DNA from: an uncultured Chloroflexota bacterium
GTDB taxonomy: Bacteria; Chloroflexota; Anaerolineae; Anaerolineales; Anaerolineaceae
Direction: 5' to 3'
NCBI GenBank assembly: GCA_902786265.1
Contig: CADACE010000002.1
Location: forward strand, 93,711-157,710
DNA length: 64,000 nucleotides
Shown here one piece after another: positions 12,051 through 42,260 of the stretch. Positions within the stretch are counted from its first letter, which is position 1. Each line of letters starts with the position of its first letter. The position numbers and the translations under genes were made by a program. Under the pieces are notes generated by a model that ran no database searches, was not told the DNA's origin, and saw only the letters and a program-made list of their open reading frames with translations.

Positions 12051-12788
12051 ATGAAAATAAAATACATCCTGTTATTACTGGCTTTGACAGGGCTGTTCAT
12101 TTCAGTATCCGCTGCAGGTGCTGATGGAAATGTACCGTCATGGAACACACACAACCAGCAGACTTATCCGATTCCGCAGCTGTATCCGATCGGGCCGAAT
12201 CAACCACAGAATCAACCACAGAATCAGCCGCAGAATCAGCCGCAGAATTGGTTTCCTAACCCTCCTCAGCAGGATCCTAAGCGTCCGCCTGAACAAAACC
12301 CACGGCCGTTTCCGTATCCGGGCCCGTATTATGATCCATGGTCAGATCTATATTTCTATCCGATTGAGGATGAAACGCAGCAGCCATGTTATCCGTATTA
12401 TCCGTACCAGCCAAATACCCCATATCAGCCATACAACCCGTATCCGCCGTATGATCCGTATCCGCCGTATGACCCTGGAAACAGAAATTCGAATGTTCAG
12501 GTCAGCAAACATTGGAATAGCAATGGTTCTATTGATCTGACATGGACGATCACCAATATTACGAATGAGTTTTGGGACAGGAAAAATATTGATATCAAAT
12601 GCACATCCGGATGCCATCTGCTGACCAGACCGGAACGGACATTATGGGACCTTCCATACAGCGTAAACCGCGGCGGACAGCTCAGCTTCACTGTCAATAT
12701 CTGGCGTCCGATGTACGGAGAAACGATGTCGTTTGCTATCATCGCCGGATCAAAGACACTGTACACATTCAACGTAAATCCAAATTAA
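12051..12788 (+). CDS. Secreted Pro/Gln/Tyr-rich protein with NBR1-Ig-like C-terminal domain
   Basis: A 245-residue exported protein. Residues 1-25 form a signal peptide. Residues about 40-145 are low complexity: four to five NQPQ units, then Pro-Tyr-rich segments with repeated YPPYDP. Residues about 150-245 form a beta-rich domain with the pattern TWTITN, two Cys six residues apart (CTSGC region), and PYSVNRGGQLSF, resembling the NBR1-type Ig-like domain frequent in Chloroflexi surface proteins. GAGGA precedes the ATG and a terminator follows, so it is a single-gene unit. The binding target is unknown, and the domain call is by pattern only. Confidence 0.7.
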   Translation: MKIKYILLLLALTGLFISVSAAGADGNVPSWNTHNQQTYPIPQLYPIGPNQPQNQPQNQPQNQPQNWFPNPPQQDPKRPPEQNPRPFPYPGPYYDPWSDLYFYPIEDETQQPCYPYYPYQPNTPYQPYNPYPPYDPYPPYDPGNRNSNVQVSKHWNSNGSIDLTWTITNITNEFWDRKNIDIKCTSGCHLLTRPERTLWDLPYSVNRGGQLSFTVNIWRPMYGETMSFAIIAGSKTLYTFNVNPN

Positions 12789-12853: not shown

Positions 12854-12957
12854 TTGTTCTATTATTTCCTCGGGCTCTACCACAATTTTTTAAAAAGTCA
12901 AGGGACAACATTGCCGGTTTTCTTTTTGAAAAATCAGGTATAGAATCCAGATTAACA

Positions 12958-13034
12958 AGTAAAAAGTGAGAAGCGAGAAGTTCTCAGGCTCAGCAGGATT
13001 CAGTAAAGCTTAACTTCACTCTTCACTCTTTACT
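12958..13034 (+). repeat. Imperfect inverted repeat of GTGAAGA-like units
   Basis: The left arm (12958-12980) is built of AGTAAAAAGTGAGAAG-like units. The right arm (13014-13034) is built of CTTCACT units and is its approximate reverse complement. It sits just upstream of the ribosome site of the next gene and may fold in the leader. Confidence 0.65.
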
Positions 13035-13065
13035 CTTCAAACTGAAGGAAAGGAGGTGCGGCAAA

Positions 13066-14430
13066 ATGAACAACGAGCAAAACAGTCTGAACGATCTGAT
13101 GCTTCAGGATGCTTTGTCAGACCTGCAGGCGGGATGCGTAAACGCTGCAGACAAACAGATTTTGTCGTATTCTCCTCTGCCTGATGCTGTCATTGATCCT
13201 TACTTATCACAGCAAGTTGAATCGAATGCCGTAATGGACCTTACATACAATTCCCTTGTCGCCTGGATCGGGGAAGCAAAGAAGGCAAGTTATTTCACCA
13301 AACATTTCGTCACTTTGAGTAAAATGATCAACAACGGCGTTGCAACCATGGCACGCGGTCTGGTGACACTGCATTTGAATGGTGAAGATCTGAGCCGGGC
13401 ACCAATGTCGATCGATGACCTGATCAGTGTCGGTTCTTATCAATTCCGGAAAAGCTATCTTGGAGTAATTCAAACATCTTCCCGAAACCCGGAAATCGGA
13501 GAACGTCTGCTGCTGAACCAGCTGAGCTGGACTACCACACTGCTGCGCCTTTATAAAACAAAAGATAAACTGGCAGAGAAACCGGCTATCAAAAACCATA
13601 AACCGGAATCAGCATCCATTGAAAGGCATGATGATATCAACGGCAAACAAGCAGAAATTTCTGATCAGATGACTGTTGATGAACCTCTGCTGAGCATGGG
13701 AAATGCACGCGCGATATCTGAACCACAGGCTTTGTCTGAACCCGGTGCTTTCTCTGCTGTCCGCAGCTACAGCGGATTCAGTGCGAAAGAGGACCGGAAA
13801 TCAGGCACCGGCAAAAACCAGCTTCAAAAAAACACAGCCAGCCGCCCGGAGATCTCATTTACAAGCGAAATTCCGAAAGAATGGAATGAACATGAAATTT
13901 CAATGTTCAATGAAACCAAAAAACTGCCGGACGGCAATAAAGAACCGGCAGATGATTTATCCGGAAACGGAAGTTCCCTTTCCGCAGAAGCAAAAGATGA
14001 TACTGTTTTAGGGATGAATAAGATCACCAAAGAAATAAATATAGACCAGAAGAATGGATCCGAAACCAAAAACGAAAAACCGGAGACAGATCCTGAAAAC
14101 AAAGAAAAAACAGCTTCTGCGCCAAACCCGGATGAAGAAAACCGGAAGACCCGCACATTAAATCTATACGAAAACATCAACGATCCTTCCGATGACAGAT
14201 TGCATGTTCCGCCGCAGGAAATTCCGATACTTGATGCAGAACATCCACCGCGATATTTTCGAATTCTGTATGACGCTTTATGCCGGAACGGAGGTTCGGA
14301 AGACGGAACACTCGTTTTTACAAATGAAGAAATTGAGCAGCTTCTTGCGGATCCGGCATTCTGTTATTATGAAAAAGACACAGCCGACGCGATGAGAAAG
14401 CTTTTCGATTCAGAGAAAAATACGGAATAA
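13066..14430 (+). CDS. Protein of an unrecognised family (paralogue of 40924-42051)
   Basis: A 454-residue protein I do not recognise. It has no signal peptide or membrane helix. Residues about 55-165 are a predicted helical domain. Residues about 170-390 are a hydrophilic, probably disordered linker rich in Glu, Lys, Asn and Ser. Residues about 396-450 form a compact domain. That last domain aligns without gaps over 36 positions with the C-terminus of the protein encoded at 40924-42051 (14 identities including Gly, Ser-Glu-Asp-Gly, Thr, Glu-Ile, Leu, Asp, Phe). The N-terminal helical domains also line up, sharing Phe-Arg-Lys at about 127-129. A perfect AGGAGG precedes the ATG. Function unknown. 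Confidence 0.75.
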   Translation: MNNEQNSLNDLMLQDALSDLQAGCVNAADKQILSYSPLPDAVIDPYLSQQVESNAVMDLTYNSLVAWIGEAKKASYFTKHFVTLSKMINNGVATMARGLVTLHLNGEDLSRAPMSIDDLISVGSYQFRKSYLGVIQTSSRNPEIGERLLLNQLSWTTTLLRLYKTKDKLAEKPAIKNHKPESASIERHDDINGKQAEISDQMTVDEPLLSMGNARAISEPQALSEPGAFSAVRSYSGFSAKEDRKSGTGKNQLQKNTASRPEISFTSEIPKEWNEHEISMFNETKKLPDGNKEPADDLSGNGSSLSAEAKDDTVLGMNKITKEINIDQKNGSETKNEKPETDPENKEKTASAPNPDEENRKTRTLNLYENINDPSDDRLHVPPQEIPILDAEHPPRYFRILYDALCRNGGSEDGTLVFTNEEIEQLLADPAFCYYEKDTADAMRKLFDSEKNTE

Positions 14431-14490: not shown

Positions 14491-14570
14491 TGTTTTCTGT
14501 TTTAAGAGAATACAAAAATTAATGTCGTTTTCAAGTATAATAAAATATGTATTTTTTCGGGGAGGAAAAA

Positions 14571-15950
14571 ATGAAAAGACTATCCGGGTACCTTGCCGCA
14601 CTGTTATCTGTTTTTTTGCTGTTTCAGACATGCATGGCAGAAAATCTGACTTTTGAAAACTTTACCTATACGATCCTTGCAGACGGAAACATTGAAATTG
14701 TCCGCTATACCGGAGATGAGGAATATCTGATTATCCCTGAACAAATTGAGGACCGCCCGGTGATCTCGATCGGAGTCAGCGCTTTTTCCCACAATGAGCA
14801 GCTGAAACAGGTGAGAGTCCCGGAGACCGTTACAGCACTTGGAAATTACGCGTTTGCCGAATGTACGAATATCCAGGCTGTTCTTTTGCCGGAAAGTCTG
14901 GTTACTCTCGGTGATCTGGTATTCCAGGGAGATGTAAAACTGGAAAGTATCACCCTGCCAAAAAGAATTGCCGCCATCGGGATAAATCCCTTCGATCGCT
15001 GTGATCTGCTTTCGGAGATCACTTTTTCCGATAACAATCCATATTATTCCTCTGATGACGGGATCCTCTTTGACCGCAGAAATACGAAATTGATCGCATA
15101 TCCGTCAGGAAAAACCGGCAGCGAATACACGATTCCCGAATGGATCACCGAAATTGACTATGCAGCTTTTTCTGAAAATAAATATTTGAAAGAAATCACT
15201 CTGTCTGATGCGCTGATGACGATCAACGGAAATCCATTCTGCGGCTGTCTCGGATTGACAGACATCCATGTATCTATTTTCAACCGCATATTTGAAATGC
15301 ATTCAGGGGCTTTATACAACACACATGAGCGGGAACTGATTGCCTATTTATGGGGGACTGATACGGAATCCTTTACGGTACAATCAGGGATCACATCCAT
15401 CGGTCAGGAAGCTTTTTACAAGCACCCGGAATTGAAAGAGATCAAATTACCCGGGACACTGACAAAGGTCGGAGATGCAGCTTTTGCCGAATGCGGTCTG
15501 ACTTCGATCAAATTGCCTGAAGGAGTCATTTCGCTCGGAAACAACACTTTTATCGGGAGTACTGACCTGAAAAAAGTTATCCTGCCTTCAAGCCTGACAT
15601 GGATCGGCAGATATGCTTTTTCCGAATGTACCGCATTGGAATCAATTTCTTTACCAAAAGCTTTGGATTCAATCGGTGAAGGCGCTTTTTACCATTGCAC
15701 ATCACTGAAAGAGTTGAAACTGCCGGAAAATCTCCGCAGTATCGGTGAATTCGCTTTTCTGGAATGTTCCTCTCTTACATCCGTCGAATTTCCGGACCAT
15801 CTGTATTCCATCGGACGGGGAGCATTTTACGGAATCGAAAATCTTACTGCAATTGTCTCCCCCGGATCACTCGCGGAAAAATGGGCAATTCAGTCTGATG
15901 TTAAATATACGCTGAAAAATGTCACTTATCTCAACGATCAGTTTATATAA
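14571..15950 (+). CDS. Secreted leucine-rich-repeat (BspA-type) protein
   Basis: A 459-residue exported protein. Residues 1-21 form a signal peptide ending near the Cys-Met-Ala-Glu junction. The rest consists of about a dozen LRR_5 (BspA-like) repeats of about 23 residues with the pattern Ile-Gly, Ala-Phe, Cys, Leu, Leu-Pro. Such proteins often mediate adhesion or binding at the cell surface. Whether the protein stays anchored is unclear, as no sortase motif or membrane helix is seen at the C-terminus. ATG 14571 is chosen over the frame at 14547 because GGGGAGG lies just upstream and the signal peptide then starts with Met-Lys-Arg. A TATAAT lies at about 14536. Confidence 0.85.
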   Translation: MKRLSGYLAALLSVFLLFQTCMAENLTFENFTYTILADGNIEIVRYTGDEEYLIIPEQIEDRPVISIGVSAFSHNEQLKQVRVPETVTALGNYAFAECTNIQAVLLPESLVTLGDLVFQGDVKLESITLPKRIAAIGINPFDRCDLLSEITFSDNNPYYSSDDGILFDRRNTKLIAYPSGKTGSEYTIPEWITEIDYAAFSENKYLKEITLSDALMTINGNPFCGCLGLTDIHVSIFNRIFEMHSGALYNTHERELIAYLWGTDTESFTVQSGITSIGQEAFYKHPELKEIKLPGTLTKVGDAAFAECGLTSIKLPEGVISLGNNTFIGSTDLKKVILPSSLTWIGRYAFSECTALESISLPKALDSIGEGAFYHCTSLKELKLPENLRSIGEFAFLECSSLTSVEFPDHLYSIGRGAFYGIENLTAIVSPGSLAEKWAIQSDVKYTLKNVTYLNDQFI

Positions 15951-40832: not shown

Positions 40833-40923
40833 TCAAACAATCTGATGAAACTCGGTTAACGAGTCACAGCGCTGAAAGCCCTCTTCCAACGCTCATGATC
40901 ACCTGATACCTGACCATCTTGCA

Positions 40924-42051
40924 CTAACCGCTGTCCTCCGGCTCTTCATCCATGCCGTCATTATACCGGTCGAGGATCTGATAGAAATGCATCGCTATCA
41001 CCGGTTCATCCCTGCGGAATTCCTCATCGCACAGCATCGTACAGATCTCGTCGATCGTCAGGTTCATGACCCCGTCTTCCGAAATGCCGCCCCGACGCAT
41101 TATCTGTTCCAGCACCTCTTTATATGAGGGGAGCTCGGTTATCAGCTTCGGCCTGTCCGATGGCAGTCCGCCGCCGACACAGGGAGGAAGGCTGCTGCTT
41201 TCGGCAACCGCGCTTTCAGCTGCTGATTCGTTTTCTGAACTGACACTTTCTTCCGGAACAGCAGGCTCTTCCTTTTCAACATATGCGCCTTCGATCACCG
41301 CTCCTTCTCCATCCGCGGAGCTTACCGCGTCTGTGACCGGTTCCGGCAACGCGGACTGATCGGAAGCTGTTTCCAGCTGATTCCGGGCTTCCGCTTCCTG
41401 CAGCACCTCATGGCGCAGTTCATAAGACGGATATTCACGGAAAGGCGCGGCATGGACGGCTTTTTTTCTTGGGCTCCCATCCTGATGGTTGAAAGATGTG
41501 GTCCCTTTTGTATAATCATATGGGTTCTTGATGCCAAGATTGAGATCGAAGGTCCGTTCCTCTGTAGAGCGAAGACGTCCCATTACCTGCGCGAAGGTCA
41601 GCATCTGGCTGAACAGGTCCTGGTCAAATTCTTTCTGTGTTTGTTTTTTCTCATTCAGAGCCGCCTCTGTTTTACGGAAATTGAAGGACATCATCTCATA
41701 CAGCCGCTCAGCGGTAAGTATTTCCAGTTTCGATTCGTCAAAATGCTTTATGATCAAAGCTGATTTCGTCAGATAACAGCTGCCGAGGTGGTTGACTGAT
41801 CTCACCAGAAGTTTACATAATTTCAGATATTCGGGAGAGAAACGGTCGCAGGTCCGCGTAACAGCGAAAAGATCTTCCGTCTGTTCCATAATGCCGGCGG
41901 TAATATCTTCAAAAGACATGGAATCTGTGCTGAAATTCCGCGGCTGTTCTTTGGAATACACGGAGCTCTTATCAGAAGGTTCTGATCGTTTCACTTCAGA
42001 CAGGGTGTTATTCAGCTCTCTCAGCATTTCCGCATCTTTTTCGTAACCCAT
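40924..42051 (-). CDS. Second protein of the unrecognised family (paralogue of 13066-14430)
   Basis: A 375-residue protein with no known domain that I can name, no signal peptide and no membrane helix. Residues about 45-165 are helical, about 170-310 form a Glu/Ala/Ser-rich linker, and about 315-365 form a compact C-terminal domain. That domain reads Tyr, Leu, Arg-x-Gly, Ser-Glu-Asp-Gly, Leu-Thr, Asp-Glu-Ile, Leu, Asp, Phe at the same spacing as the protein at 13066. The N-terminal domain shares Phe-Arg-Lys at 125-127 at the same distance from the start of the helical region. GGAGAG precedes the ATG. It stands alone, convergent with trpF. Confidence 0.75.
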   Translation of the reverse strand: MGYEKDAEMLRELNNTLSEVKRSEPSDKSSVYSKEQPRNFSTDSMSFEDITAGIMEQTEDLFAVTRTCDRFSPEYLKLCKLLVRSVNHLGSCYLTKSALIIKHFDESKLEILTAERLYEMMSFNFRKTEAALNEKKQTQKEFDQDLFSQMLTFAQVMGRLRSTEERTFDLNLGIKNPYDYTKGTTSFNHQDGSPRKKAVHAAPFREYPSYELRHEVLQEAEARNQLETASDQSALPEPVTDAVSSADGEGAVIEGAYVEKEEPAVPEESVSSENESAAESAVAESSSLPPCVGGGLPSDRPKLITELPSYKEVLEQIMRRGGISEDGVMNLTIDEICTMLCDEEFRRDEPVIAMHFYQILDRYNDGMDEEPEDSG

Positions 42052-42260
42052 TTTCTCTCCTTTCCGAAACTCATTTTCTGAATCTCAAATGTTTTTAGCT
42101 ATTATTATCTATAATAATAATCAATATTTCAGGAAAGTCAAGTGTTTTAGAATCTTTTTCTAATATTAGTGACATTTATCATATGCTCTATAGGATTTGA
42201 TTCATAAATGTCAGAAATAATTTCTGTTATTTAAGCAAAAATATCAGGAAAAATTAAATC

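Follow-up and report, generated by a model that had tools for sequence, protein, structure and literature searches.

We found that the gene P1, at positions 13066..14430 (+ strand) of the window (the whole stretch of 64,000 nucleotides analysed here, from an uncultured Chloroflexota bacterium of the Anaerolineaceae), belongs to a multi-copy family, F1, and carries a predicted promoter that also stands before phage capsid, portal and terminase-linked loci of the same genome. This common promoter is the most important point of our analysis. It leads us to propose, at about even odds (a probability of roughly 0.5), that P1, one of ~48 single-gene cassettes, serves as an accessory component of a particle resembling those of gene transfer agents (GTAs).

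If this proposal is true, a phage has been domesticated in an uncultured clade of gut bacteria, its genes being split up among co-regulated loci and surrounded by dozens of mobile, recombining cassettes from two hitherto uncharacterised protein families, F1 and T. The one promoter would then serve as a sequence signature naming candidate parts at once, and how GTAs choose their DNA and why they are kept would become testable in one more phylum.

The F1 family and its two members in the window

P1 is an open reading frame of 454 aa, and the window holds a second F1 member, the open reading frame P2 (375 aa; 40924..42051, − strand). AlphaFold2 models, each built on its own alignment, place the same elements in the same sequence in both proteins. 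In P1, a high-confidence N-terminal four-helix domain (residues 53-170, 13222..13575, + strand; helices H53-73, H79-104, H116-137 and H142-170) is followed by a linker of computed acidic charge (residues 183-382, 13612..14211, + strand), predicted to be disordered with a pLDDT <50 except at single residues, and by a C-terminal helical domain (residues 396-451, 14251..14418, + strand; H396-407, H420-428, H430-435 and H437-451). A sequence-only reading of this DNA had described just this arrangement of helical N-terminal domain, long disordered linker and compact C-terminal domain. On the − strand, P2 has its four-helix domain at 41539..41913 (residues 47-171; H47-67, H73-101, H114-138 and H144-171) and its C-terminal helical domain at 40957..41124 (residues 310-365; H310-320, H333-340, H343-348 and H350-365). 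The N-terminal domains were delimited by hhalign and AlphaFold2, the C-terminal ones by BLASTP and AlphaFold2.

The same reading had aligned the C-terminal 36 residues of the two proteins without gaps, and its count of 14 identities was reproduced: none of 500 shuffles of the C-terminal part of P2 reached 14 in the best ungapped 36-mer, and BLASTP matched the two blocks gap-free with 15 of 38 residues identical (E 9e-5 for the single comparison). As single sequences, the N-terminal regions gave no convincing alignment by BLASTP (18% identity, E 0.74). Compared as profiles, they aligned over 119 columns with an hhalign probability of 97.7 and an E value of 1.4e-12 (profile A1, P1 plus 120 relatives, against A3, P2 plus 39 relatives), which bears out the proposed correspondence of the helical N-terminal domains.

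Searches of the genome to which the window belongs returned 25 matches with P1 as the query and 36 with P2. Keeping one gene per locus and leaving out antisense and short ORFs pulled in by phmmer, we counted by hand ~48 places with F1, comprising 45 fetched genes and another three behind promoters at the ends of contigs C15, C38 and C16. The sequence-only reading was right in seeing a family of its own, but its two copies in 64 kb greatly undercount the ~48 places in the genome. This genome, like those of the relatives, is a metagenome-assembled genome (MAG), with 4.6 Mb in 77 contigs, 89% completeness and 4.6% contamination. Fifteen of the 45 fetched F1 genes are cut by a contig end. Of the 154 contig ends, 39 were counted by hand as lying within an F1, T or terminase gene or immediately behind the promoter of one, which helps to explain why the genome is fragmented. 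Broken copies (L055, L036 and L082) also occur.

Beyond this genome, the family is narrowly spread. A first sweep with P1 found F1 in 5 of 41 genomes, and a P2-type profile found it in 5 of the 147 genomes of the GTDB family, all five in one genus, with no match in the remaining 142; within the F1-bearing genus, 9 of the 14 genomes examined gave no match. The idea of a restricted family stands, the spread being much narrower than the Anaerolineae for which a census had been suggested. The protein database yielded 163 relatives of P1, and the P2 alignment holds 39; the P1 relatives considered (120 of the 163) and those of P2 lack a Pfam domain and are named "hypothetical protein" at most. Neither P1 nor P2 matched Pfam or, above the cut-off, NCBIfam; F1 matched no PHROG; Foldseek found no significant match in the PDB for either model and none among viral models for P1; P1 matched no phage in INPHARED; and the P1-type profile matched 0 of 132 candidate stretches from IMG/VR. 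As had been anticipated, none of these searches of Pfam, NCBIfam, the PHROGs and the PDB matched the F1 domains to a named family. Judging from these comparisons, F1 is a two-domain family restricted, among the genomes searched, to one small group of gut bacteria.

Several fold and sequence matches were considered and rejected. One or both models resembled de novo designed toroids, Nup170, STAT, 14-3-3 and CorA helices; the scores are no better than helical bundles in general would give, and they were not used to assign a function. Against PDB sequences, profile A1 gave hits to 18 chains at E values of 1 or below, the best being CFAP46 (4.9e-5) and Huntingtin (1.1e-4). Matches of this kind sit in the linker region and not in the N-terminal domain, and the few that reach C-terminal domain positions do so at E 0.03 or worse.

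Cassette edges, empty sites and module exchange

DNA identity between F1 copies begins ~20-410 nt before the gene and stops within ~160 nt after the stop codon. Outside these limits lies unrelated DNA, even for a pair of copies at 97.6% identity (L027/L028); another pair, L043/L044, has somewhat more upstream DNA in common than with a third relative. The P2 cassette ends in a 3′ hairpin, AGCGTTGGAAGAGGGCTTTCAGCGCT (40868..40893, − strand), found by a pattern search that located this hairpin at 11 genome sites (control, 0), every one of them just downstream of an F1 copy. No common neighbourhood was seen among F1 loci except in the pair L070/L086, in which different F1 subtypes occupy the same place in different species.

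Orthologous sites empty of F1 were found in relatives. At the P1 site, none of the three resolved relatives (G006, G007 and G013) has a copy, and the site measures ~290 bp in G007 versus 1771 with P1. Similarly, the alaS-mreB site lacks a copy in four of four relatives (65 to 421 bp versus ~1870), and so does the pheT site in all three resolved relatives (G005, G013 and G006; in G007 it is split over contigs). At the latter, G013 and G006 hold other DNA, free of F1 and T in G006. Synteny breaks fall at the sites of P2 and of the ATP-synthase copy (L030), whose flanks are not adjacent in relatives, and intergenic divergence from the relatives is too high for exact junctions or target duplications to be read. 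When tested for an IS200/IS605-like organisation, the cassettes showed hairpin ends and no transposase gene inside.

A number of further features lie in or near F1 loci. Two related proteins (52% identical; L061:7603-8361 and L039:1463-2218) near F1 copies look, by eye, like REP-associated Y1 transposases, and REP-like GGGGAC hairpins flank many F1 cassettes. At L027, L028, L066 and L067, P2-like genes meet contig ends: the 21.5-kb contig C54 breaks off on either side within a C-terminal half of such a gene, the two halves being inverted, and contigs C5 and C40 end in N-terminal halves; the C54 segment may be invertible, or its ends may be a mere assembly break at a repeat. Between genes named by eye as atpG and atpD, contig C7 carries a ~185-bp repeat (L030:2067-2255), of which G013 has dozens of MITE-like copies at 91-96% identity. 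Directly 3′ of P1, the window encodes a BspA-type leucine-rich repeat protein (14547-15950; PF13306, 1.2e-76); in relatives, the BspA-type gene adjoins a proline-rich gene (window 12051-12788) without P1 between them. By eye, the 5′ leader of several F1 copies, from promoter to start codon, contains inverted repeats that are long but imperfect (GTGAAGAGTGAAG ... CTTCACTCTTCAC), an example being window 12945-13060, and short dispersed repeats appear to be translated in F1 linkers.

To describe the copies we classified them by promoter, N-domain, C-domain and 3′ hairpin. P1 combines classes N1 and C1 behind a type A promoter, and P2 combines N2 and C1 behind type B. Across the family, promoter A stands before copies of classes N1 and N2, and promoter B before N1, N2 and N3; C1 is found on N1 and N2, C2 on N2 (L029 and L031) and N1 (L076), and C3 on N3, mostly with a basic tail. 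An example is given by two copies of G006, L076 and L080, whose N-domains are 97% identical and whose C-domains differ in class. The linker follows the C-domain in charge: among 13 copies computed, it is acidic with C1 or C2 and basic or near-neutral with C3. Taken at the sequence level, F1 promoters, N-domains, linkers and C-domains are reshuffled between copies. In L080 (G006, contig C36), inspection by eye also found a remnant of a C2-type C-domain downstream of the F1 stop codon; the gene itself now ends in C1, as though its former C-terminus had been pushed out by a newer one.

The modules also differ in their rates of change. Fifteen F1 pairs were compared, two of which were too short to split by domain; in the other 13, dN/dS was 0.05-0.30 in the N-domain, 0.06-0.38 in the C-domain, where two values were saturated, and 0.11-0.86 in the linker. 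The F1 N-domain is under purifying selection.

A predicted promoter common to F1 copies and phage-derived genes

The type A promoter of P1 consists of an outer conserved box, TACCACA (12878..12884, + strand; consensus of 93 promoter windows), an inner palindrome, AGGGACAACATTGCCGGT (12901..12918, + strand), with 2 mismatches to the searched consensus, and a predicted −10 box, TAGAAT (12941..12946, + strand), 31 nt from the palindrome centre; an overlapping TATAGA at 12939 is an alternative −10 box. The palindrome consensus is near A(C/G)(C/G)GACAACATTGCCGGT, and in 76 of the 93 windows, drawn from the genome itself and its relatives, 30-31 nt separate the palindrome centre from the −10 box. 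The form of the palindrome found at P1 also stands at further sites of its own genome.

Allowing up to 2 mismatches, the type A pattern gave 39 forward and 44 reverse rows in this genome, against 2 and 4 in controls. These rows collapse to 52 distinct sites, 40 of which have promoter context; the other 12 were set aside as lacking it, one of them (C42:21302) with a loose TACCA match. Promoter-context sites stand before 15 F1 genes (including P1), 19 T genes, one protease-capsid operon and one lysin-portal operon, with two more before an unassigned ORF and two cut before any ORF. Ordinary host genes were absent from the 36 gene-assigned sites. At the end of contig C24 (L295) and the start of C18 (L299), type A promoters precede an ORF starting MMENTDLIPKNEY that is cut by the contig ends; this peptide was absent from the proteins retrieved, and the ORF is perhaps a further F1 or T subtype.

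Relatives show the same combination, with type A promoters at the capsid operon of G007 and G006, the lysin-portal operon of G006 and G013, and the T-terminase pair of G006 and G007. That promoter-A F1 copies and particle genes have a promoter sequence in common is well supported by these motif matches, and the two sets quite probably belong to one regulon.

P2 stands behind a promoter of another type, B, with the box ATGATAAATGTCACTAATAT (42163..42182, − strand; 3 mismatches to the searched consensus ATGACAAATGTCACTATTTT) and a predicted −35 box, TTGACT (42136..42141, − strand). Sorted by promoter, the ~48 F1 copies comprise 15 with type A, 13 with type B (P2 and a cut copy at the end of C16 included), 11 with none recognised and nine without upstream DNA in their contig. 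Promoter B was not seen before particle or T genes, and five 3-mismatch matches to it were dropped for having no F1, T or particle gene nearby.

The genes behind promoter A include phage homologues. One locus (L231) encodes a fused head protease-capsid protein (PF25209, 6.7e-29), a phrog_1084 protein and a tail fibre; a second (L232), an M23 lysin (5.9e-35) and a portal (phrog_10963, 2.5e-28); and two more (L234 and L245), a T gene followed by a terminase. The terminase matched Pfam and the PHROGs weakly, and the G006 protein matched no PHROG; the chromosomal terminases are 35% identical to a phage terminase, at E 4e-87 (G000), 4e-59 (G006) and 3e-94 (G007). In the genome of the window, particle loci lie at C1:37 kb, C1:110 kb, C27 and C74, and in G006 the capsid and portal operons are at most 17 kb apart, with TerL ~75 kb off on the same contig. 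The capsid operons of G000 and G007 have, as judged by eye, the same kind of gene upstream. Also by eye, an FtsZ-like gene (L231:9620-10969) overlaps the last gene behind the capsid operon by 4 bp.

Capsid and portal loci share a 169-kb contig that also bears an F1 copy, at C1:124.6 kb. Since this contig carries all three, and F1 is found on many contigs, a binning error is not an easy explanation of the link between F1 and phage genes. Among the stretches examined, no capsid, portal or terminase operon contains an F1 gene.

T directly precedes the terminase in all four terminase loci seen. In the genome of the window, the T gene next to the C27 terminase is broken into ORFs of 65 and 257 aa, and T before the C74 terminase seems, by eye, to end in a shifted frame; with one or both T genes looking interrupted, the T-terminase pair of this genome may not work as such. 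T occupies the place usual for a small-terminase gene, and scans of T proteins gave no match to a DNA-binding family; two spurious frames were left out of the T alignment. F1 and T are unrelated by hhalign (probability 0.1 in that test).

Between chromosomes, dN/dS was 0.06-0.11 for the capsid, 0.19 for the portal and 0.11 for TerL, and ranged from 0.06 to 0.20 across capsid, portal, lysin, TerL, p175 and p447, values that are rough because synonymous sites are near saturation (dS 1.1-2.0). The chromosomal particle genes are under purifying selection.

A contiguous counterpart of these genes is found in the IMG/VR phage contig L272 (IMGVR_UViG_3300033463_000867, 25.9 kb), where homologues of the chromosomal particle genes form one cluster. 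Its capsid is 68% identical to the chromosomal protein, a 181-aa protein 77%, the portal 45% and the terminase 35%. L272 carries an integrase (phrog_1, 4.1e-36), and F1 and T are both without a match in the 21.2 kb examined. No ORF had the L272 integrase as its best match at E 1e-4 in the 12 chromosomal loci compared (L231, L232, L234, L244, L245, L251, L254, L257, L277, L279, L290 and L312). Because the phage genes are clustered in L272 but split, and under purifying selection, in the chromosomes, we interpret the latter as a putative domesticated, GTA-like element, with packaging of host DNA as a prediction.

Proposed role of F1 and comparison with known systems

F1 is likely the accessory repertoire of this GTA-like element, helping to build or load a virus-like particle; for a role in or on the particle as such, we see the chances as evenly balanced. 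In CRP-type promoters, a class II activator site lies near −42. The type A palindrome lies at roughly −42, in the position expected of a −35 box, and on this ground we propose that one dimeric activator would bind it and switch these loci on together. As the constant part of F1, the N-terminal four-helix domain should bind a constant partner, and it might dock on one common protein, with a component of the head or of the packaging machinery as the likeliest candidate. The linker and C-domain, which differ between copies and are exchanged among them, should hence bind variable targets; the charged, fast-evolving linker and the exchangeable C-domains would vary the target of each copy, for example the capsid interior or DNA. 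The resulting virus-like particle is predicted to carry DNA between cells. Several findings count against a particle role: only 15 of the ~48 F1 copies, P2 not among them, have promoter A, the P1 palindrome itself deviates at two positions, F1 and T are missing from the 21.2 kb examined of L272, none of the particle operons seen contains an F1 gene, no structure match was informative, and one or both T genes beside the terminases of this genome look interrupted.

A bolder version would see in these genes a Chloroflexota GTA with a roaming, self-diversifying repertoire. In it, nearly 70 promoter-gene-terminator cassettes (F1 plus T) would be switched on together with the capsid, reshuffle their modules and spread between genomes inside the particles that they help to make, and scattered T genes and cassettes would choose which chromosome regions are packaged. 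We offer this as a speculation that is probably wrong in at least some part.

Other explanations start from the same data. The cassettes could be selfish mobile units that an enzyme inserts at new sites, their phage-gene promoter being a relic of phage origin. Such units would have recurring ends, as seen here (TACCACA or TGAC-N4-GTCAC on the left, often hairpin plus GTTAA on the right), as well as sharp repeated edges without a common flank even at 97.6% identity; the hairpin, which follows an F1 copy at each of its 11 sites, the empty sites of relatives and the lack of common neighbourhoods outside L070/L086 point the same way. However, F1 matches no recombinase family, junctions and target duplications are unreadable at the divergence of the relatives, and the coding parts are under purifying selection, for which a passenger has no need; we regard pure selfishness as unlikely. 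Alternatively, F1 and T could be host proteins that do something else, for instance in defence or in cell remodelling during lysis, and the palindrome could be the operator of a host stress or life-cycle regulator that merely switches them on alongside the particle genes. Their absence from the examined part of L272 and the majority of F1 copies without promoter A would fit, but T stands directly before the terminase in all four loci seen and promoter A before no ordinary host gene among the 36 sites with an assigned gene; this account, too, is unlikely.

Very improbable, in our view, is a lineage-specific expansion of paralogues with gene conversion, beside decaying prophage remnants, in which the promoter motif is a coincidence or a generic strong promoter. 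It would account for the many paralogues of graded divergence and for the broken copies L055, L036 and L082. Against it stand motif counts far above control, the constant spacing to the −10 box, the recurrence of this promoter at particle genes of G006, G007 and G013, particle-gene dN/dS of 0.06-0.20 between chromosomes, and the turnover of insertion sites. An accessory part of a GTA-like particle remains our preferred reading of P1.

Phage scaffolding and internal head proteins have helical end domains and a long, disordered, charged middle. The likeness of F1 to them is one of functional analogy, no sequence or fold match having been found.

Outside the Alphaproteobacteria, very few GTA-like elements are described, according to the part of PMC12946183 consulted, and a literature search at title level on GTAs in Chloroflexi, Chloroflexota, Anaerolineae, Anaerolineaceae and Flexilinea found none for Chloroflexota. 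In the sections of PMC11841831 used here, GTAs are portrayed as having packaging and structural genes in several loci, usually with a small-terminase gene before TerL. The Chloroflexota element has phage-homologous structural and packaging genes (protease-capsid, portal, M23 lysin, tail fibre and TerL) at several chromosomal loci, in the genome of the window as in G006, and these are inherited with the chromosome and kept by purifying selection (dN/dS 0.06-0.20, dS 1.1-2.0). With RcGTA, DsGTA, CcGTA and BaGTA, as presented in those sections, it thereby has in common phage-derived capsid, portal, terminase and lysis genes on the chromosome in several loci, and a gene in the small-terminase position before the terminase, here T (PMC11841831). 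The likeness is one of gene anatomy. The element differs in belonging to another phylum and in its dozens of dispersed paralogous cassettes of F1 and T, which the same sections do not mention for known GTAs (PMC11841831).

A gut example is FpGTA of Faecalibacterium, which, in the passages of PMC12946183 consulted, has two operons separated by ~125 kb, and no identifiable tail; TerS, TerL, portal and capsid belong to the first operon, and tail fibre, holin and endolysin to the second. Its particles have been demonstrated (PMC12946183), whereas those of the Chloroflexota element are predicted. The two differ further in gene grouping and in phylum, and no multi-copy family is described for FpGTA in those passages (PMC12946183). 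What the elements have in common is a gut anaerobe as the host and particle genes that lie in separate operons (PMC12946183, same passages).
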